Part shown: piece after piece, positions 6,482 through 28,193 of the stretch | Layout of the letters: every line of letters begins with the position of its first letter | Position numbering within the stretch: the first letter of the stretch is position 1 | Assembly: GCF_026427355.1 (NCBI RefSeq) | Contig: NZ_CP102664.1 | Location: 434,001-498,000 of the forward strand | DNA: 64,000 nt | Origin: Sphingobium sp. JS3065 | GTDB lineage: Bacteria > Pseudomonadota > Alphaproteobacteria > Sphingomonadales > Sphingomonadaceae | Reading direction: 5' to 3' | Translations under genes and position numbers: made by a program | Notes under the pieces: generated by a model | What the model was told of the DNA's origin: nothing | The model's database searches: none | The model's input: the letters and a program-made list of their open reading frames with translations, nothing else

Positions 6482-6552
6482 GTGAAGCATCCCTGGTTGA
6501 ACTTTGCGATGGCGCACGGCGAACCCGGGGGTTCGTCACGCGCGCCAAGCGT

Positions 6553-7370: not shown

Positions 7371-7570
7371 GGACGTTGCTCGCCTGATCGCCGGTGCTGG
7401 CCATGATGGTGGCCGCCGTGAAAGAAGTGCAGCAACGGACAGGCGAACAGGAAGGCGTAGGGTAAAAGGCCGAACAGGTGCTGCCGATGCTCCGGGTAGA
7501 ACAGGTAGCCCGCGATAAGGCCTGTCGATACAGCCGCGAGCAGCCAGGCCCGTTTGCTGGAAAGATTCAT
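7367..7570 (-). CDS. DUF2933 small membrane protein
   Basis: 67-residue protein with two hydrophobic segments (AWLLAAVSTGLIAGYLFY; LLPYAFLFACPLLHFF) and a His-rich C-terminal tail (HGGHHHGQH). This is the layout of the DUF2933 family, often found beside copper ATPases. Its function is not established; the Cys-Pro in TM2 and the His tail suggest metal contact. It overlaps copA and cueR by 4 bp each. Confidence 0.85.
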   Translation of the reverse strand: MNLSSKRAWLLAAVSTGLIAGYLFYPEHRQHLFGLLPYAFLFACPLLHFFHGGHHHGQHRRSGEQRP

Positions 7571-9967: not shown

Positions 9968-10069
9968 GCGGTTTGGCGACTAGTGGCAGATTGAGCGCAC
10001 CTTCGTTTACACCTGCGTTGGATTGGCGCATTCACCGTCGGGAAAGAGCGCGCTCAGGGGCCTTCTCGT

Positions 10070-11191
10070 TCATGCCATTGTGCCGATCGTTTTGCGGAAG
10101 CGGGCCAACGCGATCAGGAAAAACGCCCCGCCAATCGCCGCGATCGCGAGGAATTGCGGCCAAACCACGTCGAAGCCGGCCCCACGAAACAGAATGCTCT
10201 GTGCAAGCTTGACGAAATGAGTAGTCGGCGCGGCTTCCATGAAAATCCGGACCGTTTCGGGCATGCTCTCGCGAGGCGTCATGCCGCCCGACAGGAGTTC
10301 GAGCGGCAATAGAACCATCATGAGCAGCAAACCGAATTGCTGCATCGATCGGGCAATGGTTCCAAGGAAAATGCCGAGCGAGGTTGTTGCAAAGATCTGG
10401 AGGCCCGCTCCGGCCAGAAATAGCGGCACCGAACCTTGAATTCCGATTGCGAGCACGCCTTTGAGTACGATCATGATGGCGAACGCGCAGGCGATGAGTA
10501 CGACCAGTCCCATCGCCCAGACCTTGCTCGCCATAATCTCGAAAGGGGTCACCGGCATCACCAGCAGATGCTCGATCGTCCCGTGTTCACGTTCGCGGAT
10601 CAAGGCCGCGCCGGTCAGCACAATGGAAAGCATGGTGACATTGTTGATCACTTCCATCACCGCGCCGAACCATCCCTCGGCCAGCGTCTGATTGTAACGG
10701 GCGCGCACTGCCAATGTCACGGGAGGTTGGGTGGAGCCACGATAATGCTGCAGGAATTCGGCCGCTTCGGCCTGCAGGATTTCCTGGATATAGGCATTTC
10801 CCGCGAATGCCTGGCTCATGCGTGTAGCGTCGATGTTGAGCTGGATGGCAGGCCGGCGCCCGGCCAGCAAGTCGCGCTGGAAATTGGGCGGAATGTTGAC
10901 TGCGAAAGTAAACCGGCCGGCATCAAGACCAGGATCCATGGCGCCCCGCTCGATCAGTGACGGACTGGTGAAATGGGGCGGATAGAAGGCGGCGGTCATG
11001 CGTGTCGAAAGGGGCGACCGATCCTCATCGACGATTGCGATCGGTGCATTCTGCAGCGTCTCGGGAAACGCGGTCGCGCCCATGTAGATGGCGAGCGAAA
11101 ATGCGTAGACGATCAGCACCATCATGGTCGGATCGCGCCAGAGACTGCGCAATTCCTTGACCCCAAGCCGCAGAATGTTCGCTGCCTGCAT
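10070..11191 (-). CDS. ABC-2 type permease
   Basis: Membrane subunit of an ABC exporter, 373 residues, of the YhhJ/YbhR type. It has an N-terminal TM (DPTMMVLIVYAFSLAIYMGA), a large extracytoplasmic domain, then five membrane segments including SIVLTGAALIREREHGTIEHLLVMPVTPFEI, the conserved ABC-2 core. It starts 2 bp after the stop of the RbbA-like gene and is last in the operon. With the ABC-2 domain of that fusion it would form the translocation pair; the HlyD and NodT proteins would carry substrate across the envelope. Confidence 0.9.
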   Translation of the reverse strand: MQAANILRLGVKELRSLWRDPTMMVLIVYAFSLAIYMGATAFPETLQNAPIAIVDEDRSPLSTRMTAAFYPPHFTSPSLIERGAMDPGLDAGRFTFAVNIPPNFQRDLLAGRRPAIQLNIDATRMSQAFAGNAYIQEILQAEAAEFLQHYRGSTQPPVTLAVRARYNQTLAEGWFGAVMEVINNVTMLSIVLTGAALIREREHGTIEHLLVMPVTPFEIMASKVWAMGLVVLIACAFAIMIVLKGVLAIGIQGSVPLFLAGAGLQIFATTSLGIFLGTIARSMQQFGLLLMMVLLPLELLSGGMTPRESMPETVRIFMEAAPTTHFVKLAQSILFRGAGFDVVWPQFLAIAAIGGAFFLIALARFRKTIGTMA

Positions 11192-11193
11192 CT

Positions 11194-13971: not shown

Positions 13972-15041
13972 CGCGGCGTTCTGATTGAAAGCTTGGCAGG
14001 CCAAGCCACATTGGGATCAACGCGCACATAGGCCATGCCGGGGACGCCGGTCTTCACCTGCCGAGTATAGCGCTGCAGCACCGCCGGATCGATGCGGGCC
14101 TTGACCCGGAACATCAGCTTTTGCCGTTCGCTCTCGGTTTCGACCGTCTTCGGGGTGAATTGGGCGACATCGGCGACAAAAGAGACTTTCGCCGGGATGA
14201 CGATTTCGGGCATTGCATCGAGGACGATCCGGACTTCGCTACCCAACCCCACACGGCCCGCGACCGTTTCCGGCAAAAAGAAGGTTATGAAGACGTCCGA
14301 GAGGTTGACGAGGTTGAGCACTTTGCCTCCGCCAGCGACAACCTCGCCGGGCTGGGCAATCCGGTATTGGATACGGCCCGAACTTGGCGCCCTCAGATCA
14401 CTGTCGGCGATCTCGACATCCAGCCGGCGGATTCTGGCCCGCGCTGCTTCGACATTTGCGCGTGCACCGATCATCTGGCTGCGGGCGGTCTCGACCGCGG
14501 AACCGATGGCCGCGAATTGCGCCCGGGCTGCCTCAGCGGCTGCTTGCGCGCCCTCCACCCGCGCCTGATCGTCATCGCGCTCCTGCACCGGTGTTGCGCC
14601 TTCGCGAGCGAGCGTTGTGGAGCGCGCAAGACGTTTGCGTGCGACATTCAATTCGGCGGCGCGCTGCCTGACCGTGGCTAGAGCCGCCGCGCGCTCGCTC
14701 TGCCGCTGCTCAACCTGGCTCTCCGCGAACTGGATCGCACTCAAGGTTTGCGCGAGTTGAGCAACCGCCTCTGCCCGTTGCGCCAGCAGCGCGTCGGTAT
14801 CCATATGTGCGACGATCTGGCCGGCCCTGACGGTATCGCCCTCGTCAACAAGGATGTCACGAATACGACCCGGCGTCTTTGCGGAGATGTCGATTTCGAC
14901 CGCCTCGATGCGGCCATTCCCCCCTACGATTCCGGCAGGAAGGTCTTCGACCTTCAGCATTTGCCAGACGACATAAATTGCCACGGCTACCACAGCGGCA
15001 ACGACGCCCCTAATAAGCCAAGCCCTGCCCATTGGCTTCAT
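13968..15041 (-). CDS. HlyD-family periplasmic adaptor
   Basis: Membrane-fusion protein of 357 residues. It has one N-terminal TM ([23 protein letters not shown]), a lipoyl half ([48 protein letters not shown]), a long coiled-coil hairpin rich in Ala/Glu/Arg, and the return barrel ([21 protein letters not shown]). It resembles YhiI of the RbbA cluster. The ATG overlaps the NodT-type gene stop by 4 bp. It should bridge the ABC pump and the outer-membrane channel. Confidence 0.92.
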
Positions 15042-16471
15042 TGTTCCGTTTCCTTGGTGTGCGTCAAAGCCTGCCCCTGATCCGCGTCGGCGGGAAAGCC
15101 GCCGCCAAGCGCCGCGTAAAGTGCAATACCGCTGGCGAAATAACCGCTGCGCAACTGGATCAGCGATTGCCGGACCGAAAAGAGGTCACGCTGCGCGTCG
15201 AGCACTTCGAGATAGGCGGAGCGCCCGTTGTCGAAGCGCAATTGTGCTAGGCGTGCGCGTTCGGTGAGCGCGGCGAGCATCTCTTGCGTGGCTACGATCT
15301 GCTCGGCAAGCTGCTTGCGTGCGACAAGCGCATCGGAGACATCGCGAAAGGCCTCCTGAACCGTCCGCTCATATTCGGCGACTGCGATGCTTTGGCGCGC
15401 CTTTGCGAGATCGAGAGCGGCGGCGTTGCGGCCCGCATTGAAGATCGGCACTACAAGAGTCGGGGTAAAACCCCACGAATTGCTCCCGCTCTTGAACAGT
15501 CCCCCGAGTTCGGCGCTCGCGGTGCCGAGGTCGCCGGTCAGCGAAATATTCGGAAAGAACGCCGCTCGTGCTGCGCCGATATCGGCCTCGGCCGCGCGCA
15601 ATCGATGCTCCGCCGCGATGATGTCAGGACGGCTTTCGAGCAGTTCCGAAGGCAATCCTGCCGGCAAGTCCTGGCGAGGGGTCTCCTCGGCAAGTCGCAG
15701 CGTTCCGGGCACCAGCTCGACCGAATGTCCGATCAGGAGAGCCAGCGCATTGCTGTTAGTGCCGCGCTCCTGTTCGAGCGCGGCAAGCGTGGTTCTTGCG
15801 GCGGACAGCAGCGTCTGCGCCTGTGTCACTTCGAGGTTCGATCCCGAGCCTACCTCATAGCGGCGGCGCAGGATCCGCAAGGATTCCGCGCGCGTGGCGA
15901 CGCTGTCGCGCGCGATAGCGATGCGCGCATCGAGTTCCTGGGCAAACAGGTAAGTTGCCGCCACCTGAGCAACAAGACTTGCGGAAACGCCGCGCCGTCC
16001 CTCTTCGGTCGCCAGATATTGCTCGCGTGCGGCTTCGCGAAGATTGCGCAGCCGCCCCCAGAAATCGATCTGCCAGCCGACGCTGAGCTGCGAATAGAGC
16101 TGCGTGCGTTCCGCCGCCTGGCCCGTGAACGACAGGTCAGCCGGAGTGCGCCGCCGAGATCCCGTCAAAACGCCGTCCAGTTGCGGGTAGAGTGCTGAAC
16201 CCCTTATCCTGAAAGCGGCACGCGCTTCCTCGACGCGCCCGGCCGCGATGCGAATGTCCCGGTTGTTCTTCAAGGCTTCGACGATCAGTTGCCGAAGCTG
16301 CGGTTCCTCGAAGAAGTCACTCCAGCCGATCCGGGCGATCGAGCCGGACTGAGGGGCCTGAGCGCCGAAGCTTGCCGGCACTGGCGTATCGGGCCGGACG
16401 TGCTTGGGCGCGAACGAACAGCCGCCAAGCACGACCAGAGCGAAAAAAGCTGCGCAAGCGGCCGGTGACAT
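15038..16471 (-). CDS. NodT-family outer-membrane efflux lipoprotein
   Basis: Outer-membrane channel of 477 residues, OprM/NodT type. The start at 16471 opens a lipoprotein signal MSPAACAAFFALVVLGGC with CSFAPKHVRPD after the cleavage Cys, typical of this family, and GGGAACGG lies just upstream. The reading frame stays open upstream to ATGs at 16519, 16648 and 16657. The ATG at 16648 is exactly 7 nt past the -10 of the metal-type promoter, so a longer leaderless form is possible but would bury the signal peptide. First gene of the ABC exporter operon. Confidence 0.88.
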   Translation of the reverse strand: MSPAACAAFFALVVLGGCSFAPKHVRPDTPVPASFGAQAPQSGSIARIGWSDFFEEPQLRQLIVEALKNNRDIRIAAGRVEEARAAFRIRGSALYPQLDGVLTGSRRRTPADLSFTGQAAERTQLYSQLSVGWQIDFWGRLRNLREAAREQYLATEEGRRGVSASLVAQVAATYLFAQELDARIAIARDSVATRAESLRILRRRYEVGSGSNLEVTQAQTLLSAARTTLAALEQERGTNSNALALLIGHSVELVPGTLRLAEETPRQDLPAGLPSELLESRPDIIAAEHRLRAAEADIGAARAAFFPNISLTGDLGTASAELGGLFKSGSNSWGFTPTLVVPIFNAGRNAAALDLAKARQSIAVAEYERTVQEAFRDVSDALVARKQLAEQIVATQEMLAALTERARLAQLRFDNGRSAYLEVLDAQRDLFSVRQSLIQLRSGYFASGIALYAALGGGFPADADQGQALTHTKETEQ

Positions 16472-16654
16472 CCGTTCCCGATCCGTCGTCGACTTTGGCC
16501 GGCCGGATGCGGAGGGCATTTGACTGATAAGTTGATCCGCGCAATTCGTTTGCTTCAGCCAACCTCGGTCCCGGCAGGAATATCCCACTCCAAAACTGCG
16601 CAGTTTTCCGGAGAATGTCGCGCGGGGATTTCCTTTGTTGCGGATCATCGCCAA

Positions 16655-16685
16655 CACTTAACACCTCCAGTTACTGTAGAAGCAA
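16655..16685 (-). promoter_or_regulatory. PbrR/CadR-type promoter of the ABC exporter operon
   Basis: Minus strand: -35 TTGCTT (16680-16685), 19-bp spacer CTACAGTAACTGGAGGTGT, -10 TAAGTG (16655-16660). The spacer is nearly identical to that before the FTR1 gene and close to the known PbrR/CadR operator pattern (CT.TAGTAACTAGAGG). It is one of four related sites in the window. Confidence 0.8.
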
Positions 16686-16918
16686 GCGCTGTCTTGCTGC
16701 TGGCGGCAGGATATTGATCGATGGACGACGCTTCGCGAACGTAGGAGGACAGGCGGCGGTTTGGTGTAACTGGTATGATGCTTCGAAGTCCATCTGTGCG
16801 AGACAGGTGACGGAATCGAATTTGGGCTGGCGACCGGTTTGTCTACCCAGTATCGCAGGAAAAAAGGATATGTCGCAACTTTGTCGACCAAGTGCATCAA
16901 GAACTTGAGGGGGTAATT

Positions 16919-18331
16919 ATGAGCGCGCAAAGCCGAAATGGGAAATCACCGCGCACAGCCGTTGCTGTCGCTTTATCTATCCGGTTTCTTGGTGCGGCCG
17001 GGACGGTTACCGGGTCTCGCTATCTCGTCGAAGGGCCTCATACCCGGCTGCTGGTTGACTGTGGGCTGTTTCAGGGTGGCAGGGAACTGCGCGAGCGCAA
17101 TTGGGAAGAAATGCCCGGTGGGGCCGAGACAGTCGAAACAGTCGTTCTGACCCATGCCCATATCGACCATTCAGGCTACCTGCCTAGGCTTGCTCATAAC
17201 GGTTGGTCCGGTCGAGTACTGAGCACTGCCGGAACTGCGGATCTCTGCCGTCTTCTCCTCCGCGACAGCGCCTTCCTGCAAGAGAAAGACGCCGACTTCT
17301 CGAACCGTCATGGCTTCTCGCGTCACCAGCCTGCACTGCCGCTCTACACCGAAGAGGATGCACGGACAGTCCTTGAGTATTTTACCCCTGTTGATTTTGA
17401 GACGCCTCATGTTCTTGACGATGACACAAGCGTCTGCTTCCGGCGTGCAGGTCACATCCTCGGTGCATCGAGCGTCGAACTGACGACCCGGGGCCGCAAG
17501 ATCATTTTTTCTGGCGACCTCGGCCGTTTCGGAGATCCCGTCATGTGCGATCCGGAGTTGCCTGGCGAAACAGACTATCTGGTCGTTGAATCGACCTACG
17601 GCGATCGCCTGCACGAACGCGTGGATCCGGAGGAGGTGCTGGGTGCGCTGGTAGAGAAGTGTGTGCAGCGAGGCGGAAGCGTGATCATACCGGCATTTGC
17701 GGTAGGCCGCGCCCATTCCCTTCTTTTCCATCTCTCCCGGCTCAAGGCTTCAGGGCGCCTGACCTCGATCCCGGTATATCTGGATAGCCCCATGGCGATC
17801 GACGCCAGGGAAATCTATTGCCGCCACCGCGACGATCACCGTCTGACGCCGGAACAGTGCGAAGAGGCATGTAGCGTTGCCGAGTATGTTCGCGACGTCG
17901 AGATGTCGAAGCGCCTGTCCCGTGACACCAACCCGAAGATCATCATCTCAGCCAGCGGAATGGCGACTGGCGGGCGGGTGCTCCACCACCTCAAGCAGTT
18001 TGCTCCCGATCACCGGAATCTGATCCTGTTTGCCGGTTTCCAGTCTGCCGGGACACGTGGAGCCAAGATGGTGGCGGGTGCGCGCTCTGTCAAAATCCAC
18101 GGGGAACTTGTCCCCGTGCGCGCCGAAGTCGCCAACCTGACGATGTTGTCGGCCCATGCCGACGCCGACGAAATCATGCGCTGGCTTGCGGCGATCCGGA
18201 CGCCGCCGCGCATGACCTTCATCACTCATGGCGAACAAGGAGCATCGGAAACCCTGCGAGCGCGCATCGAAAAGGAACTTGGCTGGCCTTGCCGCGTGCC
18301 GGTCCAGGGAGAACTGGTCAATCTGGCATGA
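16919..18331 (+). CDS. Beta-CASP metallo-beta-lactamase RNase-like protein
   Basis: Predicted zinc-dependent nuclease of the COG1236/CPSF-Ysh1 class, 470 residues. The MBL motif THAHIDHSG (His79, His81, Asp83, His84) is followed by GHILGASSVEL, SGDLGR and the beta-CASP part (VESTYGDR; PAFAVGRAHSLLFHL; ISASGMATGGRVLHHL; LSAHADADEIMRWL; THGEQGASETLRARI). The ATG at 16919 has GAGGGGG 5 nt upstream; an earlier in-frame ATG at 16892 lacks this. Its stop overlaps the phosphorylase start (ATGA), so the two are probably made together. Confidence 0.92.
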   Translation: MSAQSRNGKSPRTAVAVALSIRFLGAAGTVTGSRYLVEGPHTRLLVDCGLFQGGRELRERNWEEMPGGAETVETVVLTHAHIDHSGYLPRLAHNGWSGRVLSTAGTADLCRLLLRDSAFLQEKDADFSNRHGFSRHQPALPLYTEEDARTVLEYFTPVDFETPHVLDDDTSVCFRRAGHILGASSVELTTRGRKIIFSGDLGRFGDPVMCDPELPGETDYLVVESTYGDRLHERVDPEEVLGALVEKCVQRGGSVIIPAFAVGRAHSLLFHLSRLKASGRLTSIPVYLDSPMAIDAREIYCRHRDDHRLTPEQCEEACSVAEYVRDVEMSKRLSRDTNPKIIISASGMATGGRVLHHLKQFAPDHRNLILFAGFQSAGTRGAKMVAGARSVKIHGELVPVRAEVANLTMLSAHADADEIMRWLAAIRTPPRMTFITHGEQGASETLRARIEKELGWPCRVPVQGELVNLA

Positions 18332-19884
18332 TCTCTCAGGTTCCGAAGGAGTCGCAGCACCCGGAGCATGAGCCACACCTCATGCGTGCGCGGCGCATGG
18401 GAATCACGACCAGCCAATATGAGCCTGTCGTATTCATGCGGGAGGATTGCTCCGTCTGCCGCTCTGAAGGCTTGCTGTCTCGTCCAGCAATTTTGGTAAG
18501 CATTGGGGGCAGGCAAATTGTCGCGACACTCTTCCACACCTCGTCCGACGCGCTCGCCCCCGACGAACTGGGTATGTCGGAGGCGGCCTGGGCCATGCTT
18601 GGTGCTCAGCCGAACGATTCGGTTACCATTCGTCATCCGGCACCGGTTGCATCGCTTGGTGAGTTACGCAGTCGTGTCTATGGCAACCGACTAGGCGAAA
18701 ATGCATTCCGGTCGATCATCACTGATATCGTTGCCGGGCGGTACAACGACGTCCTTCTGGCTTCATTTGTTACGGCCTGCTCGGCGTTCCCACTTGATCT
18801 GGCTGAGACGGTTGCGTTGACCAGAGCCATGGTCGCTTCCGGCGATCGGCTTTCCTGGGGCTCAGACCTTATTGTCGACAAGCATAGCGTTGGCGGGCTG
18901 CCCGGAAATCGAACGACACCGATTATCGTGGCCATTATCGCGGCAAATGGCCTTGTCATGCCAAAGACTTCGTCCCGCGCCATTACCTCGCCTGCTGGAA
19001 CGGCCGACACCATGGAAACCCTGGCGCCGGTCGATCTTGACCTGGCAGCCATCCGCCGGGTCGTCGAACAAGAGAACGGCTGCATCGTCTGGGGCGGCTC
19101 GGTCCGTCTGAGTCCGGCCGATGATATCATCATCGGCGTGGAAAGGGTTCTTGATCTCGATGCGGTTGGCCAACTTGTCGCATCGATCTTGTCCAAAAAG
19201 GTCGCTGCGGGCTCGACACATCTTGTCATCGACCTTCCGATAGGCCCATCAGCGAAAGTGCGGTCCGCCGCGGCCGCTGAAGCCTTGTCCAATGCGCTTA
19301 CCTCGGTTGCCGCAGAATTCGGTTTGTGCACCCGGATCATGGAAGGACCGGGGGCGGAGCCCATTGGCCGTGGTATTGGTCCGGCATTGGAGGCCCGAGA
19401 CGTTCTTGCCGTTCTCACAGGCGTTTCTCCCCCCGAGGACTTGCGCCGCCGCGCGATACAATTGGCCGGCGCGATACTGGAACTTGGCGGACGGGTTCCC
19501 GAGGGCCAGGGCGAAGCCCAGGCGGAACTGACACTGGCCAAAGGTCATGCGTGGGACAAATTTCAGCGGATTTGCGAAGCGCAGGGCGGCATGAGGGTTC
19601 CTCCGACGTCAAGCCACAGGCACACGCTGACGGCTTCCCGGCCTGGTCGGATATCGTATCTCGACAACCGTAAGCTTGCCAAGCTGGCGAAGTTGGCCGG
19701 AGCCCCCGTGGCCAAGGCAGCGGGTGTCGAGATGCATGTGCGGCTAGGAAATCTGGTCGACCACGGGACGCCATTCTGCACGGTGCACGCGGAGAATCGG
19801 GGAGAACTGGAATATGCGCTCGCTTTTGCCGAGTCTGACGGCGCAATCTTCTCGGTGACAGAACAAGAAGCGCCGATTTCCTGA
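18328..19884 (+). CDS. Thymidine/AMP phosphorylase family protein
   Basis: Predicted phosphorolysis of nucleosides or nucleoside 5'-monophosphates, 518 residues. It has the extra N-terminal domain and length of archaeal AMP phosphorylase rather than the ~440 residues of E. coli DeoA. Core motifs: DKHSVGGLPGNRTTPI, SSRAITSPAGTADTMETL, GGSVRLSPADD and the C-terminal domain ending LVDHGTPFCTVHAENRGELEYAL. The ATG at 18328 overlaps the upstream RNase stop. AMP phosphorylase yields base and ribose 1,5-bisphosphate; thymidine phosphorylase yields deoxyribose 1-phosphate. The sequence alone does not decide between them. Confidence 0.88.
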   Translation: MISQVPKESQHPEHEPHLMRARRMGITTSQYEPVVFMREDCSVCRSEGLLSRPAILVSIGGRQIVATLFHTSSDALAPDELGMSEAAWAMLGAQPNDSVTIRHPAPVASLGELRSRVYGNRLGENAFRSIITDIVAGRYNDVLLASFVTACSAFPLDLAETVALTRAMVASGDRLSWGSDLIVDKHSVGGLPGNRTTPIIVAIIAANGLVMPKTSSRAITSPAGTADTMETLAPVDLDLAAIRRVVEQENGCIVWGGSVRLSPADDIIIGVERVLDLDAVGQLVASILSKKVAAGSTHLVIDLPIGPSAKVRSAAAAEALSNALTSVAAEFGLCTRIMEGPGAEPIGRGIGPALEARDVLAVLTGVSPPEDLRRRAIQLAGAILELGGRVPEGQGEAQAELTLAKGHAWDKFQRICEAQGGMRVPPTSSHRHTLTASRPGRISYLDNRKLAKLAKLAGAPVAKAAGVEMHVRLGNLVDHGTPFCTVHAENRGELEYALAFAESDGAIFSVTEQEAPIS

Positions 19885-20174
19885 CTGCGGCGGACACATA
19901 CCTGCGGTTGGCGGCGGCTGGTGGTTCGGGCAGCGGTTCGGCCTTCGAGTGAGGTTGCCCACGGTGGAATAGGTCGTTTGCGCGAACCTCCCTACTCGCG
20001 ACCGGGCGGGAGACATTTGCACAAGATATCAAGGGCGCGACCCAGCGGGGCAGCAGTCCCAAAGCGCGCTGCATGGCGGAGGCGCGCGAGGCGTTCGATC
20101 TGCCCCGGGTTCAGATACGAGGCTGCGCGATCTCTGCTCCGGAACCGCTCGAGGGGATCAGTCTGTAATAGTGC
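19885..20174. other. Intergenic region without recognised gene
   Basis: About 290 bp between the phosphorylase and the ATPase promoter. A possible 85-codon frame at 19921-20178 is Arg/Pro-rich, has no convincing ribosome site and ends in the promoter, so I do not call it. No clear terminator or repeat was seen. Confidence 0.5.
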
Positions 20175-20205
20175 TTGATCCTCCAGTAGCTTCAGGTGCT
20201 AGCTT
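20175..20205 (+). promoter_or_regulatory. PbrR/CadR-type promoter of the APC-motif ATPase gene
   Basis: -35 TTGATC (20175-20180), 19-bp spacer CTCCAGTAGCTTCAGGTGC, -10 TAGCTT (20200-20205). The ATG at 20212 lies 7 nt after the -10, at the expected transcription start, predicting a leaderless mRNA. The spacer shares the CCAGTA/CAGG dyad with the other three sites but is the most divergent. Confidence 0.75.
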
Positions 20206-20211
20206 CAATCG

Positions 20212-22356
20212 ATGAGCACAATCATGAGCGTTAATTGGCGGGTGGCCAATTTGGACTGCGAGCATGACGCGGCGGCGCTGAGTCGCGGATTGGCTGGTTG
20301 CCCCGGCATTGCCGATATCGACGTCCTTCCCAAGTCAGCCAAGATCAAGGTGAGCATCGACGTTGCTCAGATTTCTCCGGCCCGTCTTCGGGACAAGCTG
20401 AGAGAGATCGGCTTTCCGGTTGTCGAAGGTGCCGAACTTCCGGCACAGCCGAAGCCGTGGCGCAATCCCAAAGTGCTCGCCTCGCTGACATCCGGGCTGC
20501 TGTTGCTGACCGGCTGGCTGGTGAGCGCAGCGCCGTCAATGGCTGCCGCAGCATTGCCTCTCAATGTGGCGGCCATTGTCATCGGCGGATATTTTTTCGG
20601 GCGGGATGCGATCGAGGAGTTTGTTTTCGAGCGCAGGATCGGCATTCAGATGCTGATGAGTATCGCGGCGATTGTCGCGGCAGCACTGGGGCAACCGGCC
20701 GAAGGTGCGGCGCTGGTATTCCTCTATTCCATTTCCGAGGCGGCTGAAGGCTATACGGAGGAAAAGACGCGCTCGGCGATCAAGGCGTTGATGGCGCTAG
20801 CCCCCAAGATTGCATTGGTGCGCCGCGATGGCGACGAGATCGAGATTCCAGTCGAGGAACTGGTCGTCGGAGACGTGTTTATCGCCCGGCCGGGACAATC
20901 GATGCCGACGGACGGAGAAATCCTGAGCGGTTCTTCGAGCGTAAATGAGGCACCGGTCACAGGTGAAAGCATTCCCGTGGAAAAGCGCCCGGGCGACGAG
21001 GTGTTCGCTGGCACCATCAACGGCGAAGCAGCGCTCGAAGTCAGGGCTACTCGCACGCACGCTGACAACACTCTCGCCAGAATCGTGCATATGGTCGAGG
21101 AAGCCCAAGAGCGGCGCGGCCAGAGTCAACGCTTCATCGAACGCTTCGGAGCCTGGTACAGCCCGGCCGTACTCGGTCTCGGCATTGCCCTGGCGATCGC
21201 ACTTCCACTGCTGATGGGCCTGTCGTGGCACGACGCCATGGTGCGAGCGACAATCTTCATTGTCGCGGCGGCGCCTTGCGCGCTCGTGATTTCGATCCCG
21301 ATCACCATGGTGGCGGCGTTGGGAACGGCGGCCCGCAACGGTGTGCTGATCAAGGGCGGCATGTACATCGAAGCGCTTGGCCGGGTGCGGGTTGTTGCTT
21401 TTGACAAGACCGGCACGCTTACGCGTGGGGAGCCGCAGGTCACCGACATTCTGCTGGGCCCAGCCGACGGTGGTGGTCCCGAAACCGAAGAGGCGCTGTT
21501 GTCGATGGCGGCGGGCGTGGAGCGGCAGAGCGAGCATCCGCTCGCCCGCGCTATCGTGCGCCATGCGGAACAGGCGGCGCTGCCAATCCCGTCAGCAATC
21601 GACTTTCAGTCTACGACCGGCGCGGGCGCCGTCGCTAAAATCGACGGACGGCATGTCCACATCGGCAGTCCAGCCATGTTCGAGGATCGGCTCAATATCG
21701 ATATTGCCGAAATGAGGCCCGAAATTGTCCGGCTTCAGGATGACGGCAAGACGGTCATCCTGATAGGCGATCACCGGACGGTTTGGGGACTGCTTGCGCT
21801 ACGTGACGACCTTCGACCGAACGCCCGCAAGGCAATCGCGGCGCTCCACGCCGCCGGAGTGGGGCATGTTGTAATGCTCACGGGCGACAATCAACGCACC
21901 GCCCAAGCGATCGCGAGGGAAGCCGGGATCGACGAAGCCTTTGCAGACTTGAAACCGGCGGACAAGGTCGCAAGAGTGCGTGCCCTGGCGAGGGAGCGTG
22001 GCCATGTCGCCATGGTCGGAGACGGGGTGAACGATGCCCCTGCGCTCGCCGAGGCGTCGGTTGGCGTCGCTATGGGCGCTGCCGGGACCGATGTCGCCTT
22101 GGAGACCGCTGACGTGGCGTTGATGGGCGACGATCTTGAAAAGCTCGTGTTTGGCTTGAGACTGGCCCGGCGCACCCAAGCTGTTGTCCGCCAGAACCTA
22201 GTCTTGTCTACTGTCGTGATCGGCGCGCTGATCATCGGCGCTGTCGCCGGGATATTCTCACTTCCCCTCGTTGTCGTGGCGCATGAAATCAGCGAATTTG
22301 TGGTCATCGCATCTGGCCTGCGGATGTTGCGTGCGGCCGGAATAGACGCCGCATGA
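20212..22356 (+). CDS. P1B-type metal-transporting ATPase with APC motif
   Basis: Inner-membrane metal exporter, 714 residues. The N-terminal HMA-like domain has DCEHD where CxxC is usual. The TM6 metal site reads AAPCALVISIP, that is APC instead of CPC or SPC. DKTGTLTRG, SEHPLARAI, GDGVNDAPAL are intact. The last TM region has HEISEFVVIASGLRML, resembling the HEGGT-type motif of P1B-4 (CoaT/CtpD/PfeT) pumps. Substrate is uncertain: Zn/Cd/Pb from promoter type, Co/Fe/Zn from the TM8 motif. Start at 20212 fits a leaderless mRNA; ATG at 20224 is an alternative. Its promoter sits between two nucleotide-metabolism genes. Confidence 0.9.
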   Translation: MSTIMSVNWRVANLDCEHDAAALSRGLAGCPGIADIDVLPKSAKIKVSIDVAQISPARLRDKLREIGFPVVEGAELPAQPKPWRNPKVLASLTSGLLLLTGWLVSAAPSMAAAALPLNVAAIVIGGYFFGRDAIEEFVFERRIGIQMLMSIAAIVAAALGQPAEGAALVFLYSISEAAEGYTEEKTRSAIKALMALAPKIALVRRDGDEIEIPVEELVVGDVFIARPGQSMPTDGEILSGSSSVNEAPVTGESIPVEKRPGDEVFAGTINGEAALEVRATRTHADNTLARIVHMVEEAQERRGQSQRFIERFGAWYSPAVLGLGIALAIALPLLMGLSWHDAMVRATIFIVAAAPCALVISIPITMVAALGTAARNGVLIKGGMYIEALGRVRVVAFDKTGTLTRGEPQVTDILLGPADGGGPETEEALLSMAAGVERQSEHPLARAIVRHAEQAALPIPSAIDFQSTTGAGAVAKIDGRHVHIGSPAMFEDRLNIDIAEMRPEIVRLQDDGKTVILIGDHRTVWGLLALRDDLRPNARKAIAALHAAGVGHVVMLTGDNQRTAQAIAREAGIDEAFADLKPADKVARVRALARERGHVAMVGDGVNDAPALAEASVGVAMGAAGTDVALETADVALMGDDLEKLVFGLRLARRTQAVVRQNLVLSTVVIGALIIGAVAGIFSLPLVVVAHEISEFVVIASGLRMLRAAGIDAA

Positions 22357-22492
22357 GAACCATCGTCCAGCACGCTGAAGGTTGCTCCGTTTGGACCGCA
22401 TCGACTGGCTTCGCGATCGCGCTCGAATGGGAAATGGTCGGCCGGACTGCCAGAATGTCGGACCAGATGACTATGACAAGGCGGACCGCTCC

Positions 22493-23401
22493 ATGATTGT
22501 CCTGTCGCTACCCGAATGTCAGGCATTCGGATTGAAGCTTGCAGGGGCGCTTGTGGCTGAGCATGCGGTCATTGAAGTCCGCCGTTTTCCAGATGGTGAA
22601 AGTTATTTAAGGCTGCCACCGGATCTGCGCGACAGGTCTGTAATCCTGAATTGCACGCTTGCGAATCCCGATTCGAAACTTGGGCCGATAGTCTTCGCTG
22701 CGGACGCCGCGCGCGAATTGGGAGCGGCGACTGTTGGTTTGGCAGCACCCTACCTCGCCTATATGCGGCAGGATACACGGTTTTCTCCGGGCGAGGCAGT
22801 AACATCGCGCAGTTTCGCGAAAATGCTATCTGCAGCCTTCGACTGGCTCGTGACGGTCGATCCGCACCTGCATCGTCATGACTCGCTAGATGCAATCTAT
22901 ACGATTCCCGCCAATGTTGTTCACGCAGCTCCCCTGCTTGGCGCCTGGATCGGCACCCATGTCGAGCGACCCCTGCTCATCGGCCCGGATTCAGAAAGCG
23001 AACAATGGGTGGCGGAATTGGCGAATGTCATCCAAGCCTCCTATGTCGTGCTCAATAAGCAGCGGCTGGGCGACCGCAGCGTAAGAATTGACTTTCCTGA
23101 TATGAGCCCCTTTGCCGGTCGGTGGCCGATCCTCATCGACGATATCGCATCATCGGGCAGGACAATGATCGAGGCGGCAAAGCGTCTCCATGAACTGGGA
23201 ATGGCTCGCCCCGTTTGCGCCATCATTCATCCATTATTCGTTGGTGATTCTTTTGCTTCACTCAGTCAATTGAGTTCGAGGATCGTCAGCACCGACACTG
23301 TACCACATGAAAGCAACACCATCTCTGTTGCTGGACTTCTTGCGGCCGAAATCGTCCGGATACTCGATAAGTTGGAGCCACCGAGCCAATCTGGCGGATA
23401 G
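22493..23401 (+). CDS. Ribose-phosphate pyrophosphokinase (PRPP synthetase) family
   Basis: Predicted to make PRPP from ribose 5-phosphate and ATP, 302 residues. Visible motifs: RRFPDGESYLRL, GLAAPYLAYMRQDTRFSPGEAVTSRSFAKML, VTVDPHLHRHDSL and the PRPP loop LIDDIASSGRTMIEA. The loop differs from the VDDI-DTAGT form of the main Prs enzymes, marking a divergent branch likely distinct from the housekeeping copy. The ATG at 22493 begins the conserved domain; an upstream in-frame ATG at 22382 gives an unconserved extension. It follows the ATPase by 136 bp and may be co-transcribed. Confidence 0.88.
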   Translation: MIVLSLPECQAFGLKLAGALVAEHAVIEVRRFPDGESYLRLPPDLRDRSVILNCTLANPDSKLGPIVFAADAARELGAATVGLAAPYLAYMRQDTRFSPGEAVTSRSFAKMLSAAFDWLVTVDPHLHRHDSLDAIYTIPANVVHAAPLLGAWIGTHVERPLLIGPDSESEQWVAELANVIQASYVVLNKQRLGDRSVRIDFPDMSPFAGRWPILIDDIASSGRTMIEAAKRLHELGMARPVCAIIHPLFVGDSFASLSQLSSRIVSTDTVPHESNTISVAGLLAAEIVRILDKLEPPSQSGG

Positions 23402-23466
23402 GGTTTTGCTTCACCGGAGGTCATGACCAGCACATCCGGTTCGGGGCGCGTCATGCTCCTCTGATC

Positions 23467-23853
23467 TCAAAGCTGGTCGATGACTCGCTTCAGTTTCTCG
23501 CCGACCTGATGCGCGGCTAACTTGAGTTCCTGATTGTCGATCGCCTGCATCGAGGCAAGCGGATCGATCGCGGCCACTTCGCTGTGACAATCGTCCACTT
23601 CCTGGACGATGACATTGCAAGGCAGCATCGTCCCAACCTTGTCCTCGAGCTTGAGCGCCTCGTAAGCGAGGGCCGGATTGCAGGCGCCAAGAATCCGGTA
23701 ATTGCGGAAGTCGACGCCGATCTTGCGCTTGAGCGTCGCCTTGATGTCGATCTCAGTCACGACGCCGAAACCCTCGGTTTTAAGCGCTTCGACGACCGCC
23801 TCAACCGCGCGGTCGAAATCAAGCGGCATGATCTTGCTGAAATAGTAGCTCAT
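23467..23853 (-). CDS. DUF302 protein
   Basis: 128-residue protein matching the DUF302 family: YYFSKIMPLDFDRAVEAVVEALKTEGFGVVTEIDIKATLKRKIG, then YRILGACNPALAYEALKLEDKVGTMLPCNVIVQE. The function is unknown; the family often accompanies metal or sulfur genes. GGAG lies 5 nt before the ATG at 23853, which is preferred to the GTG 6 nt upstream. It is the third gene in an operon with the SHOCT and Met-rich proteins, 29 bp after the SHOCT gene stop. Confidence 0.88.
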   Translation of the reverse strand: MSYYFSKIMPLDFDRAVEAVVEALKTEGFGVVTEIDIKATLKRKIGVDFRNYRILGACNPALAYEALKLEDKVGTMLPCNVIVQEVDDCHSEVAAIDPLASMQAIDNQELKLAAHQVGEKLKRVIDQL

Positions 23854-23882
23854 AGTCACTCCATCTCGAACCGGTCACTGGA

Positions 23883-24149
23883 TCAGGACTGCGCAGTCAG
23901 GTCCGTCTTCTTCTGGAGATATTCCTCTCGCTCCAGTTCGCCCTTGGCGTAGCGCTGCTCCAGTATCTCAAGGCTGGACGATCCGCGTCGTTCGTCGACC
24001 CCATGCGTGCTCGACCGAAAGATTGAACGGGCGAGCGCCACAAGCCCGATGATGGCAAGCACGATAAGCAACAGGAAGAAGATGCCCTGAAACGGCATCC
24101 ATCCGCCCCACATCGCGTCCCGGCAGGCGCCATTCGACCACATGGGCAT
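23883..24149 (-). CDS. SHOCT-domain small membrane protein
   Basis: 88-residue protein with one membrane helix (FQGIFFLLLIVLAIIGLVALARSIF) and a C-terminal SHOCT motif (SLEILEQRYAKGELEREEYLQKKTDL), a short domain thought to mediate oligomerisation. The N-terminus is rich in Met, Trp and has one Cys (MPMWSNGACRDAMWGGWMPF). The start codon shares a base with the stop of the Met-rich gene (TGATG), indicating translational coupling. Confidence 0.85.
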   Translation of the reverse strand: MPMWSNGACRDAMWGGWMPFQGIFFLLLIVLAIIGLVALARSIFRSSTHGVDERRGSSSLEILEQRYAKGELEREEYLQKKTDLTAQS

Positions 24150-24613
24150 CAAGGCACCTGCTGCCAACAACCGGAATGGCGGTTGACGTTGAAGCGCTGA
24201 ACCAAAGCCTCCTTTTCGACCGTCACGACGTCTGCCGTAATCGTGTCGTTGTCCTTGGCTGCCACTCGTCCGGGCTTGAGACGCGGATTGCCCATCGCTG
24301 CGATCCAGCGTTCGAGATAGGCCTTTGCATCGTCCACGGAGAGATTGAGGTTGGCCGAGGGGGAATTATAGCCCCACATCATGCCGGGCCCCATCATCCC
24401 TGGCCCCATCATGCCGGGACCCATCATCATCCCGGGGCCCATCATTCCCATCATGCCGGGTCCGCCACCCTGCATCATGTAGCCACCACAGGTTGTCGCG
24501 ACCGGCGGGGTCGCAGGCGCGGCTTGAGCCTGAGCGACAGCGGCACCCGCGAGAAGAGCCGAGCCTGCGGCGAACGCAAACCCGAATTGAACGATATTAC
24601 CTGCCCTACGCAT
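24149..24613 (-). CDS. Exported Met/Gly/Pro-repeat protein, probable metal binder
   Basis: 154-residue predicted periplasmic protein. A signal peptide (residues 1-30, ending AVAQAQA) is followed by one Cys (TTCGGYMM) and a repeat tract of GPGMM/GPGMMG units with about 16 methionines in 40 residues. The C-terminal ~65 residues (NLSVDDAKAYLERWIAAMGNPRLKPGRVAAKDNDTI) recall a PepSY-like fold. Clustered Met residues commonly bind Cu(I)/Ag(I), but the promoter is PbrR/CadR-like, so the metal is open. GAGGAG lies 7 nt before the ATG at 24613. Confidence 0.8.
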   Translation of the reverse strand: MRRAGNIVQFGFAFAAGSALLAGAAVAQAQAAPATPPVATTCGGYMMQGGGPGMMGMMGPGMMMGPGMMGPGMMGPGMMWGYNSPSANLNLSVDDAKAYLERWIAAMGNPRLKPGRVAAKDNDTITADVVTVEKEALVQRFNVNRHSGCWQQVP

Positions 24614-24656
24614 ATCATTACTCCTCGTTGTGGAGCCGGCTGAGTCGGCCATTTCA

Positions 24657-24687
24657 AATATACAGCCTCCAGTAGCTAGAGGAGCAA
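24657..24687 (-). promoter_or_regulatory. PbrR/CadR-type promoter of the Met-rich/SHOCT/DUF302 operon
   Basis: Minus strand: -35 TTGCTC (24682-24687), 19-bp spacer CTCTAGCTACTGGAGGCTG, -10 TATATT (24657-24662). The -10 is the best of the four sites. Transcription from about 24650 gives a ~37-nt leader with a ribosome site before the ATG at 24613. Confidence 0.82.
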
Positions 24688-24860
24688 CAACTCGCTGCAG
24701 ATTATGTTGCTGTGTTGGTAGGCCGAGTCTCTGGAACGCGCTTTGACAGATATCAAAAGCCTTCCGAAGCCATTGACCTCAGGTTGATCGGTTACCATCG
24801 GCCGGCTCAGGTCGATTATTGCTTCGTGCACCTCTGTGCGAGCAGCATCGCGGAAAATGC

Positions 24861-25283
24861 TCAGGCCAGCCTTTCCGTGGGCAGCGTCAATGCATCGAGT
24901 ATCTTGCAGTCGGCGACTATGCCGTTTTCACAAGCTTTTATTATGCGATCGAGTTCGCCGCGAAGATTGGTCAGATCGGTGATCTTCTGGTCGATCGCAG
25001 CGATCTGTTCGCGGGCAATCCCATCGACCGCCTTGCAGGACTGGTCAGGGTGATCGGCAAGGGCCAGCATTTCCCGGACAGTGTCGAGGGAAAAGCCAAG
25101 ACTGCGGCCTTTGCGAATGAATGTCAGACGCCGGACATCTGCACCATTGTAGACACGGCGGCCAGCGGCCGTCCGTAGCGGCTGGTGCAATACTCCTTCG
25201 GTCTCGTAAAACCGGATAGTGTTGACCTTGGTGCCAGTCAGCCTGGCGAGTTCGCCGATCGGCATTCGATCCTGATAGGCCAT
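24861..25283 (-). CDS. PbrR/CadR-like MerR-family Pb/Cd/Zn sensor
   Basis: MerR-family metal-responsive activator of 140 residues. N-terminal winged helix (MPIGELARLTGTKVNTIRFYETEG), dimerisation helix, and cysteines at 83 (DQSCKAVD), 118 and 126 (ACENGIVADCKILDAL), the three-Cys pattern of PbrR/CadR-type Pb/Cd sensors. The ATG at 25283 was chosen because GGAGGTG lies just upstream. It is divergent from the FTR1 gene and is the only candidate in the window to bind the four related operators. Confidence 0.9.
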   Translation of the reverse strand: MAYQDRMPIGELARLTGTKVNTIRFYETEGVLHQPLRTAAGRRVYNGADVRRLTFIRKGRSLGFSLDTVREMLALADHPDQSCKAVDGIAREQIAAIDQKITDLTNLRGELDRIIKACENGIVADCKILDALTLPTERLA

Positions 25284-25321
25284 GCTCACCTCCATATTGC
25301 GAATGACTTGCAAGAAAAGCC

Positions 25322-25352
25322 TTGCTTCTACAGTCACTGGAGGTTCTATCCT
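25322..25352 (+). promoter_or_regulatory. PbrR/CadR-type promoter of the FTR1/cytochrome gene
   Basis: -35 TTGCTT (25322-25327), 19-bp spacer CTACAGTCACTGGAGGTTC, -10 TATCCT (25347-25352). The ATG at 25359 is 7 nt past the -10, predicting a leaderless mRNA. The site lies between the divergent regulator and its likely target. Confidence 0.85.
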
Positions 25353-25358
25353 CAAGGG

Positions 25359-27356
25359 ATGGACCACGTCGAATCGATTTTGCGCGCACCCTGGCGCGCC
25401 CTTGCAGCTTACCGTCAATCGGCGTTCGCATTTCGGCGAATTGTTCCCGCGATTTTCCTGACTTTGGCATTGCCGGGTGTGGCCCGCGCCTCAGATGAAG
25501 ATGTGCGGACGGCCTGGCGACTGCTTGACTACGTTGCCGTCGACTATCGCGGCGCAGTCGAGCACGGGACCATCAAGAATCCGCAGGAATTCGCCGAGAT
25601 GATCGAATTCTCGCAATCGGTCGAAGCTAAAATATCAGCCCTTCCGGCGTCGCCTAGGCGCGGGGCCCTGCTTTCCGAAGCCCGAGAGTTCAAGGCGTCC
25701 GTCGCGCGCAAGGCCGACCCTGCTGCCGTGGCGACATCGGCGCGTGCACTGAGCGCTCATCTGCTGGAGGCGTATCCAGTACCGTTGACGCCGGACAAGA
25801 TGCCGGATCTGAAGCGCGGCGCCGCGCTCTATGCGGAGAATTGCGCGAGTTGCCACGGCCTCAATGGAGACGGCCAAGGCACGGATGCAGCCAAACTGGA
25901 TCCCCGACCGGTGGCGTTTACCGACAAAGTGCGCGCGCGGGAGCGGAGCGTCTTCGCGCTCGCCCAGGTTATTGACCAGGGTCTCGACGGCACGGCGATG
26001 CGCGGCTTCAGCGAACTGCCAGTCCAAGACCGATGGAACCTGGCTTTCTATGTCTCGAGATTTGCCTTTGCAGGCAGCGACCGCGGTCAAGCCCTGTGGT
26101 CGAACGATCCGGCATTGCGCAAGCGCGTCCCCGATATGGCAACGCTGGCAGGCATGACGCCTGCTGCCCTTGCCGATGGGATCGGTGAGGGAAAAGCCGA
26201 TGCGGTCATGGCCTATCTGCGCGCGCACCCCGAGGCATTGCAAGCCGCACCAGCGGGATCGTTGAAACTGTCGCGCGACCGCTTGTCACAAAGCCTCGCA
26301 GCTTATGAGCGAGGCGACCGCGATAACGCCGCCAAGCTGGCGCTCTCGGCTTACCTTGACGGGTTCGAACCGGTCGAAGCGGTTCTCGCGACCCGCAATG
26401 CGTCTCTCATGGGCCAGATCGAAAGCGAGATGGGCAAATTGCGCGCGATGATCGGTCGCGGTGAGCCTGTCCCGGCAGTCAAGGAACAGGTTGCGGCCCT
26501 CGATACATTGTTTGCCGATGCCGAAGAGGCGATCTCACCACAAGCGGAGAGCTCTGTCTCGACCTTCATCGGCTCGTTCACGATCCTGTTGCGTGAAGGT
26601 GTTGAAGCGCTCCTGATCGTGGTGGCCATGATCGCTTTCCTGCGCAAGGCGGACCGCCCCGAACTGCTGCGCCATGTTCATGCCGGGTGGATCGCAGCAT
26701 TGGTGGCTGGCGCCGCAACCTGGGCCGTGGCCACGTTTTTCATCGGGGTGAGCGGGGCAAGCCGGGAACTCACCGAAGGGTTTGGCTCGCTTTTTGCGGC
26801 CATCGTCCTGCTGTCCGTTGGCATATGGATGCACGGCAAGTCCCAGGCCGGCGAGTGGCAGCGCTACGTTCACGAAACACTGAATCGCGCTCTATCGCGG
26901 CAGTCGGCCTGGTTTCTGTTCGGACTGGCCTTCATCGTGGTCTATCGCGAGGTGTTCGAGACCATCCTGTTCTATGCCGCACTGACAGCTCAGGGTAACG
27001 GTGCGGTCGTACTAGCCGGGGCTGGCTCTGCGACGCTCCTTCTCGCGGTTTTGGCCTGGATCATGCTGCGATACAGCGCCAGATTGCCGGTGAGCCAGTT
27101 CTTCAAATACAGTTCGGCGCTCATCGCGGTTCTCGCCGTGGTGCTTGCCGGAAAGGGGGTTGCCGGCCTGCAGGAGGCCGGGATGATCGGCATCAGCCCG
27201 CTCAGCCAGGTCCCGCGAATTTCGGTCCTTGGCCTGTTCCCGTCCTGGCAATCCGTGCTGGCACAAGTGGCGGCGCTTGTCACCGTCATCTGGGGCATTT
27301 GGTATAACGAACGGCGAGCGGCAACACGGGAAACAACGAGGCCGGGAGGAGCGTGA
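25359..27356 (+). CDS. FTR1-family permease with cytochrome c domain (PbrT-like)
   Basis: Predicted metal uptake permease of 665 residues. A signal/anchor segment (residues 28-45) precedes a helical region and a c-type cytochrome with heme site CASCH (Cys162, Cys165, His166). The C-terminal half is the FTR1 permease with both REXXE motifs (REGVEALL and YREVFETILFY). FTR1 proteins move Fe(III) after oxidation; the relative PbrT of Cupriavidus lies beside pbrR and is linked to Pb uptake. Divergent pairing with a PbrR-like gene favours that model. The 25359 start is set by the promoter; longer frames run into the operator. Confidence 0.88.
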   Translation: MDHVESILRAPWRALAAYRQSAFAFRRIVPAIFLTLALPGVARASDEDVRTAWRLLDYVAVDYRGAVEHGTIKNPQEFAEMIEFSQSVEAKISALPASPRRGALLSEAREFKASVARKADPAAVATSARALSAHLLEAYPVPLTPDKMPDLKRGAALYAENCASCHGLNGDGQGTDAAKLDPRPVAFTDKVRARERSVFALAQVIDQGLDGTAMRGFSELPVQDRWNLAFYVSRFAFAGSDRGQALWSNDPALRKRVPDMATLAGMTPAALADGIGEGKADAVMAYLRAHPEALQAAPAGSLKLSRDRLSQSLAAYERGDRDNAAKLALSAYLDGFEPVEAVLATRNASLMGQIESEMGKLRAMIGRGEPVPAVKEQVAALDTLFADAEEAISPQAESSVSTFIGSFTILLREGVEALLIVVAMIAFLRKADRPELLRHVHAGWIAALVAGAATWAVATFFIGVSGASRELTEGFGSLFAAIVLLSVGIWMHGKSQAGEWQRYVHETLNRALSRQSAWFLFGLAFIVVYREVFETILFYAALTAQGNGAVVLAGAGSATLLLAVLAWIMLRYSARLPVSQFFKYSSALIAVLAVVLAGKGVAGLQEAGMIGISPLSQVPRISVLGLFPSWQSVLAQVAALVTVIWGIWYNERRAATRETTRPGGA

Positions 27357-27359
27357 GCG

Positions 27360-27998
27360 ATGGCTGATCAATGTTGCGCCAGCGCTTGCGGCCGCAAGGA
27401 CACACTCAACGATCCGCGTTGGCGCAAGGTGCTGTGGATCGCACTTGGTCTCAATGCGACAATGTTCGCGGTCGAGATCATTGCCAGTATCGTTACGGGA
27501 TCACGTTCGCTTCAGGCCGATGCTCTCGACTTTCTGGGCGACTCGGCAAACTATGCGATCAGTCTGGGCGTCGCAGGGATGGCGCTGGCATGGCGCGCTC
27601 GCGCGGCCCTTGTGAAGGGTCTTACAATCCTGCTGTTCGGGCTGGCTGTTCTGGCGTCGGCTGTCTGGGGCTTGATCGAAGGCGTGACGCCCGATCCACT
27701 GGCGATGGGTGTCGTCGGTTTCATGGCGCTGGTAGTGAATGTATCGGTCGCGCTAATGCTTTATCGTTACCGGACCGGTGACTCTAACATGCGCTCGGTG
27801 TGGATATGTTCGCGCAACGATGCAATCAACAATCTTCTGGTGATCGGCGCGGGACTCGCCGTGATGTGGAGCAGCAGCGGCATCCCCGACCAGTTGGTCG
27901 CTTTCGTCATGGCATTGCTCGGGATCAGCGGAGGCTGGCAGATCGTTCGGCAGGCGACCATCGAACTGAACGAACTGCGGGCGGAAGGGGCGTTGTAG
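27360..27998 (+). CDS. CDF-like cation transporter with N-terminal cysteine cluster
   Basis: 212-residue membrane protein related to the short cation diffusion facilitator branch. N-terminal metal-binding cluster ADQCCASACG, then FAVEIIASIVTGSRSLQADALDFLGDSANYAISL, the CDF TM1-TM2 signature with the HxxxD-type site read as DALDFLGDS, and SVWICSRNDAINNLLVI equivalent to TM5. There is no long cytoplasmic C-terminal domain. It begins 3 bp after the FTR1 stop, so it shares the PbrR-type promoter. A frameshifted relative lies at 34358-34965. Confidence 0.87.
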   Translation: MADQCCASACGRKDTLNDPRWRKVLWIALGLNATMFAVEIIASIVTGSRSLQADALDFLGDSANYAISLGVAGMALAWRARAALVKGLTILLFGLAVLASAVWGLIEGVTPDPLAMGVVGFMALVVNVSVALMLYRYRTGDSNMRSVWICSRNDAINNLLVIGAGLAVMWSSSGIPDQLVAFVMALLGISGGWQIVRQATIELNELRAEGAL

Positions 27999-28007
27999 GG
28001 GTAACGC

Positions 28008-28193
28008 ATGTCTTCGGCCGTTAGCTTCCTCGCCCTCGTGGCATTCATCATGATGGCATTCCATCGCTTCATTGCCATTCGTCGCCGCACGAGGAACATT
28101 GCCGAGGTGGCGAGTGGTCCTGAACCGAAATCGGCGCCCAGATCAGATGATACCAACCACGGTAGACCCAGGTTCATTATATTCCCGAGTTAA
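28008..28193 (+). CDS. Possible small membrane protein
   Basis: 61-residue frame with one N-terminal hydrophobic helix (SSAVSFLALVAFIMMAFHRFIAI) and a basic, polar tail. TAGGGG lies 6 nt before the ATG, which starts 9 bp after the transporter stop, consistent with a last gene of that operon. No family is recognised and chance cannot be excluded. Confidence 0.45.
   Translation: MSSAVSFLALVAFIMMAFHRFIAIRRRTRNIAEVASGPEPKSAPRSDDTNHGRPRFIIFPS

Follow-up and report, generated by a model that had tools for sequence, protein, structure and literature searches.

In the 64,000-nucleotide stretch of Sphingobium sp. JS3065 analyzed here (contig NZ_CP102664.1, positions 434,001-498,000; hereafter the window), a MerR-type metal-stress regulon is likely to be encoded, in which one regulator would serve four promoters, designated S1-S4. 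Here a core circuit of the family (Sphingomonadaceae) probably reaches beyond its usual genes, taking in an exporter of the RbbA type and a rare P1B ATPase. Such a one-regulator regulon was proposed in the initial annotation, and comparative genomics supports it, with a recurrent S3/S4 core and two further sites, S1 and S2, that were not seen in the relatives examined; the genome also holds two paralogous circuits. The promoters and the regulator gene are as follows (window coordinates):

16685 to 16655, minus strand: S1, MerR-type promoter/operator TTGCTT/CTACAGTAACTGGAGGTGT/TAAGTG, operator CTACAGTAACTGGAG, directed to the NodT-HlyD-RbbA-ABC operon
20175-20205, plus strand: S2, MerR-type promoter/operator with a weak dyad, TTGATC/CTCCAGTAGCTTCAGGTGC/TAGCTT, operator CTCCAGTAGCTTCAG, directed to the P1B ATPase gene
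24687 to 24657, minus strand: S3, MerR-type promoter/operator TTGCTC/CTCTAGCTACTGGAGGCTG/TATATT, operator CTCTAGCTACTGGAG, directed to the Met-rich/SHOCT/DUF302 genes
25322-25352, plus strand: S4, MerR-type promoter/operator TTGCTT/CTACAGTCACTGGAGGTTC/TATCCT, operator CTACAGTCACTGGAG, directed to the FTR1-cytochrome c and CDF genes
24861-25283, minus strand: MerR-family regulator of 140 amino acids, with N21 in the recognition helix and C83, C118 and C126 as likely sensor cysteines

All four sites were found where they had been placed by the initial annotation, each consisting of a TTG-type -35 element and a -10 element separated by exactly 19 bp, within the 19-20 bp of MerR-type promoter spacers, and each pointing toward the genes named as its targets. 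S1 and S4 contain the spacer core quoted for the four sites, CTNCAGTNACTGGAGG, without any change, and S2 and S3 deviate from it at two positions each; when up to two mismatches were allowed, this core produced seven strand-matches at four places, versus a mean of 0.25 in shuffled sequences, none of 100 shuffles reaching seven. The dyad symmetry stands for S1 and S4 (6 of 7 pairs each) and S3 (5 of 7) and is weak in S2, where four pairs were counted by eye, below the limit of five set in the dyad scan. The 15-base architecture pattern TTGN3CTN2AGN3CTN2AGGN3TAN3T has three exact matches in the 5.1-Mb genome, which are S2, S3 and S4, and four one-mismatch matches, namely S1, two sites beside the MerR paralogue B (see below) and one beside a MerR gene on contig C4. 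No second cluster of four such sites with at most one mismatch was detected elsewhere in the genome, and 40 Markov-shuffled windows contained none at this level, versus four in the real one. At up to two mismatches the genome gave 14 matches versus 13 for the reversed control (not split by mismatch), therefore two-mismatch matches were given no weight. The four-site set exceeds chance; judging by their letters, S2 and S3 are weaker sites than S1 and S4. The possibility that S1 and S2 are copies of a longer S3/S4 segment was rejected by local alignments, in which the likeness ends a few bases outside the promoter.

The regulator possesses the two Pfam domains of its family above their cut-offs (PF13411, MerR helix-turn-helix, 70.0 bits; PF09278, MerR DNA-binding, 79.5 bits). 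Its assignment as PbrR/CadR-like holds in that it is near CadR and PbrR in sequence, and fails at the level of the TIGR02047 (CadR-PbrR) profile, where it scored 112.1 bits against a cut-off of 151.45; it is also under the NCBIfam cut-offs for CueR, ZntR and MerR, so that 'PbrR/CadR' would here designate a neighbourhood rather than an identity. The closest solved structures in the PDB sequence search are CadR of Pseudomonas (6jgf, 6jgv), followed by the MerR-family regulator 5gpe, which we take to be PbrR691. A cysteine equivalent to C79 (C83) is present together with two loop cysteines, C118 and C126, a set that marks MerR sensors of divalent metals; the two are eight residues apart in the alignment, versus seven in CadR. 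The Pb(II) response of PbrR requires C14 and C134, according to the available part of the report (PMC3431237), whereas both are missing from the window regulator, its helix-turn-helix turn having no Cys and its tail no CVC. Of 397 family genomes, its own among them, 168 encode a homolog of the regulator at E <= 1e-30; apart from the window protein itself, none of the matches listed is more than 57% identical. The statement that it is the sole MerR protein of the Pb/Cd type is true within the stretch it was made for; the genome search revealed two paralogues, referred to as B and C:

C1:1704773-1705156: paralogue B, 49% identical to the window regulator
C1:1715714-1716109: paralogue C, 47% identical

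Both adjoin operators of a spelling different from that of the window regulator's, paralogue B having Glu in the helix and CTCTAG-type sites alongside. Each of the genome's three circuits has merR placed between one divergent upstream site and one downstream site; thus, S3 and S4 represent the ordinary architecture, and S1 and S2 are extras.

In the proposed mechanism, a dimer of the regulator would occupy the dyad within the over-long 19-bp spacer, holding the promoter inactive without metal, and binding of a soft or divalent metal by C83, C118 and C126 would twist the DNA so that the -35 and -10 elements align. The core would be formed by merR located between S4, driving the PbrT-like protein and the CDF transporter, and S3, driving the Met-rich/SHOCT/DUF302 genes, while S1 and S2 would add the NodT-HlyD-RbbA-ABC exporter and the rare P1B ATPase to the targets of this regulator. 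The Asn at a DNA-contacting helix position would pair with CT[AC]CAG/CTG[GT]AG half-sites and the Glu of paralogue B with CTCTAG-type sites, by which the circuits would be kept apart. Sites and genes are directly observed; binding, metal, induction and physiological role are predicted from sequence.

The scan of related sphingomonads envisaged in the initial annotation bore the operator out. The motif TTGN3CTNCAGTNACTGNAGN4TA was found, exact, at 36 places in 29 of the 397 family genomes (own included), and the reversed motif at none in the same 397. A MerR gene was present in 29 of the 30 loci fetched, a CDF homologue in 27 and a PbrT homologue in 20, nine of the 30 being near-copies of one cluster; six places were not fetched as separate loci and fall within the fetched ones, at S4 of the window or on a later-fetched stretch of genome G203. 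Hence the core circuit of MerR, PbrT-like FTR1-cytochrome and CDF is recurrent in the family. A MerR gene was located within 1.5 kb of 35 of the 36 motif places, the lone exception being S1, the promoter of NodT-HlyD-RbbA. These data support the operator as real and indicate that a site remote from a MerR gene, such as S1, is unusual among the genomes sampled. The same adjacency would be unexpected if the sites were ordinary weak promoters with dyads persisting as relics without a regulator, an explanation that we regard as highly improbable. In one relative (L169, 1550-2251) the MerR-adjacent site points to a methyltransferase-like gene (named from sequence) between MerR and CDF.

The letter of the recognition helix was compared with that of the operator in 76 regulator-operator pairs, taking the residue located two positions ahead of the I/V in I/V-R-Y/F and the fourth base of the half-site; the pairs are non-identical in the first 110 residues, include some near-copies, and mix regulator-first and motif-first loci. 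Asn occurred with C/G operators in 16 of 16 pairs, and Glu with T/A operators in 40 of 42, the other two being T/T; Pro was found with T/A in nine pairs and with A/T in two, Gln and Ser with C/G in one pair each, and a single pair unclassed by the script was, by eye, Glu with T/A. Like the recurrence of the core, this association is an observation, with a Fisher value of 2e-14 for Glu and Asn, uncorrected for relatedness. Since a motif-first scan for T/A sites yielded only 7 places in 149 genomes, regulator-first loci supplied most of the T/A pairs. Correlated positions of the same kind figure in the MerR-family recognition code Prot-DNA-Korr (PMC5045206), where, in the available part of the publication, T correlates with Glu and C with Lys, the C-with-Asn pair being absent from the table rows and the string C-N from the main text there. 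From the letters, the helix position used here appears to be position 14 of that code, and our pairs suggest Asn with C as an added letter in it.

This association bears on a reading in which paralogues B or C also use the window sites, forming one overlapping network. Such cross-regulation is suggested by the CTCTAG half-site of S3, which resembles the sites of both paralogues, and by the Thr in the helix of paralogue C, a letter seen with both operator types; nevertheless, paralogue B has Glu, which was met with C/G operators in no pair, and S1 and S4 are of the C/G type on both sides, so that we consider cross-regulation quite unlikely.

Hg was considered as the ligand of the regulator. The top-listed plasmid relative of the latter, on a Croceicoccus plasmid (L131, 7454-8432; the single plasmid neighbourhood of MerR inspected), is a 56% identical MerR divergent from merC/merT; its helix letter is Gln and its operator is of the C/G type. 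A Hg-type MerR was rejected because the Croceicoccus relative falls in a clade of mainly Glu regulators in the tree, apart from the window protein, which forms a long branch of its own, separate also from the main Asn clade; no mer gene was seen adjoining the window MerR, which may nevertheless bind Hg.

An in-frame ATG lies exactly 6 nt past the -10 element of S1, S2 and S4, a feature that played no part in finding the sites, and transcripts there would therefore be leaderless or almost so. The same distance was found in 10 of the 27 sites of the C/G type, S1 and S4 included, versus 3 of the 60 of the T/A type, at a background of 0.75% per position; a frame of 60 or more codons begins with an ATG at 5-7 nt behind 14 of the 27 C/G-type sites, 7 of the 60 T/A-type ones and 2 of the 9 mixed ones. 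At S3 the ATG is at 4 nt and is not conserved in Sphingobium subterraneum, a Shine-Dalgarno-led start being present further on.

In S. subterraneum the core is closely preserved: its MerR is 95% identical, S4 is identical, PbrT and CDF are 94% and 99% identical, and the S3 orthologue is a perfect palindrome. The Met-rich gene behind it (L030, 10598-10800) tracks the window frame for about 37 codons and then meets a stop, the promoter dyad being still perfect. The RbbA-type operons of the family were examined by taking 20 upstream regions, of which 17 had a NodT match, the second RbbA copy of the own genome among them, with S1 as a positive control. Within 1.5 kb of these 17 NodT regions the best matches to the 15-base pattern had 5-6 mismatches versus one for S1 (3-6 for the reversed pattern), and those to an 11-base pattern had one mismatch (L149, 1167 nt upstream) or 2-4 in the others. 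The second RbbA of the own genome (G000:C1:1024914-1027649, 74% identical) is no exception, the 1.5 kb ahead of its NodT gene containing no such promoter. The idea that RbbA operons are generally under MerR control was not supported in this family.

Several of our results weigh against one regulator at all four promoters. No like promoter was found before NodT, ahead of RbbA, in any of the 17 other family regions. RbbA at E <= 1e-100 was not found in the S. subterraneum genome, and the one ATPase match there is only 41% identical, so this relative can lend S1 and S2 no orthologous support; moreover, its S3 orthologue has TTT at -35, the TTG being lost. Within the window the strict C/G motif matches S1 and S4 only, and since it misses S2 and S3, remote sites of similar quality elsewhere would go unseen. 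The weak dyad of S2 and the one T/A-type half-site of S3 imply that a different regulator may use these sites. The -10 element of S1 is 184 nt upstream of the likely NodT start (16471), and because a leaderless start at the S1 ATG would extend the lipoprotein at length, S1 may have a leader instead. Thr was found with C/G operators in three pairs and with T/A in one (paralogue C), so the helix-operator rule is not strict, and it has few independent origins: in the tree the residue changes four times and the operator type 5-6 times, and a sign test is not significant.

Accordingly, an alternative has to be weighed in which this regulator serves S3 and S4 alone, S1 and S2 have either decayed or only resemble its sites, and something else controls the exporter and the ATPase. 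It agrees with the flanking site pair in all three circuits of the genome, the adjacency to MerR of every motif place except S1, the lack of such promoters in the 17 NodT regions and the weakness of the S2 dyad. However, S1 is exact to the family-wide motif and S2 to the 15-base architecture, both have the ATG at 6 nt, and the Markov expectation per window at no more than one mismatch was zero in 40 trials. We therefore regard the restriction to two promoters as unlikely and favour the four-promoter regulon.

The genes behind the four promoters are listed below in the order of their coordinates:

10070-11191, minus strand: second ABC-2 permease, behind RbbA (domain search)
11194-14004, minus strand: RbbA-type ABC exporter (NF033858, 1516.7 bits versus a cut-off of 1050)
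13968-15041, minus strand: HlyD-type periplasmic adaptor (NCBIfam profile search)
15038-16471, minus strand: NodT outer-membrane lipoprotein (start at 16471 from reading the sequence)
20212-22356, plus strand: P1B ATPase with APC in place of the P1B-4 SPC and HEISE in place of HEGxT
22382-23401, plus strand: PRPP (phosphoribosyl pyrophosphate)-synthetase-like gene, downstream of the ATPase (domain search)
23467-23859, minus strand: DUF302 protein (domain search)
23883-24170, minus strand: SHOCT-domain membrane protein (domain search)
24149-24613, minus strand: Met-rich, probably exported protein with no Pfam family
25359-27356, plus strand: FTR1-cytochrome c protein, PbrT-like (PF03239, 118.1 bits; PF00034, 45.2 bits)
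27360-27998, plus strand: short CDF cation transporter of 212 amino acids (Pfam PF01545; NCBIfam CDF 68.2, below the cut-off of 82.35)

The FTR1-cytochrome protein is below the NCBIfam EfeU and TIGR00145 cut-offs; its make-up of FTR1 plus cytochrome c is presumably that of PbrT, which brings the S4 unit close to a classical pbr unit. The operator sites of PbrR and CadR are spelled differently from those of the window. Like the window, the pbr system of Cupriavidus metallidurans combines a MerR-type activator, a 19-bp spacer with a dyad and a PbrT-like protein; it has PbrABCD, whereas the window has CDF, Met-rich/SHOCT/DUF302, the RbbA exporter and the APC ATPase. PbrT itself is described as a Pb(II) uptake protein in the part of the source at hand (PMC1526738). 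A target beyond the classical one would be common to the window regulator and CadR of P. aeruginosa, whose second target besides cadA is a zinc-ribbon protein, as stated in the accessible portion of the article (PMC12301328).

The ATPase scored above the cut-offs of both TIGR01525 (P1B heavy-metal, 585.5 versus 346.25) and TIGR01512 (cadmium subfamily, 501.8 versus 313.5). The P1B-4 ATPases carry SPC in M4 and HEGxT in M6, as given in the accessible text (PMC8880997), whereas the window enzyme departs from this signature with APC (M4) and HEISE (M6), and its N-terminal HMA domain is degenerate (26.2 bits versus a cut-off of 24.8). Its best PDB match is the P1B-4 enzyme sCoaT (7qbz), both having HE in M6 and no CPC. 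The PRPP-synthetase-like gene may be co-transcribed with the ATPase from S2. At E <= 1e-180 no homologue of the ATPase was found in 384 other genomes of the class or in 348 other genomes of the phylum (the samples overlap). Relatives were found on plasmids of Defluviicoccus (73%), Manganitrophus (63%) and Legionella (55%), and APC and HE[IV]SE recur in all three; that of Defluviicoccus adjoins an ArsR-type regulator. DUF302 genes are near the Defluviicoccus and Legionella relatives, and none is near that of Manganitrophus in the stretch read. With the window ATPase under S2 and DUF302 under S3, such a pair would therefore stay co-regulated. As known plasmid cargo the island received no support: 50 plasmid records match window positions 10000-28100 in part, the best 25 of the 50 matching the RbbA stretch only, and none covers 80% of it, in a search that may leave out records of the own or a very near genome.

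RbbA with a HlyD-type adaptor and a second ABC-2 permease is an arrangement which we take to be of the YhiI-RbbA-YhhJ type; the window operon shares these three components with that type and has, unlike the 17 other family NodT regions, a MerR-type promoter in front. Although RbbA-type exporters are widespread, we know of no agreed substrate for them, and a metal-type promoter before such an exporter is a direct, testable hint. The helix-operator pairing, in turn, allows a prediction of the promoters read by each of the three paralogous sensors of one cell. A more detailed picture can be offered tentatively, although we hold it to be doubtful as a whole: an Asn/C-G sensor, insulated from its paralogue, would be extended to the RbbA tripartite exporter and the P1B-4-like APC/HEISE ATPase, RbbA would take part in metal defence by exporting metal or metal-damaged material across both membranes, and transcripts would begin at the start codon or immediately beside it. 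In the titles and opening lines of abstracts of the open-access papers covered, no description of this regulon arrangement was found.

Metallo-beta-lactamase/Beta-Casp and thymidine-phosphorylase-like genes (16919-19884) are located between S1 and S2, and the promoter and dyad scans gave no MerR-type site for them. The S. subterraneum contig that encodes the 95% identical MerR also carries a similar metallo-beta-lactamase/thymidine-phosphorylase-like pair (L162, 13923-16786; 54% and 52% identical). Another short CDF frame (34358-34636, PF01545) has an N-terminus like that of the CDF transporter at 27360-27998 and is probably truncated. Finally, a second MerR protein of the window (6990-7373, helix letters VSQRMIRHYE) accompanies a set of genes at 488-9912 that comprises CusF, CusABC-like genes and an ATPase resembling CopA, in which YHS and heavy-metal-binding domains are present; apparently, this Cus/Cop cluster with its own MerR is a separate circuit.

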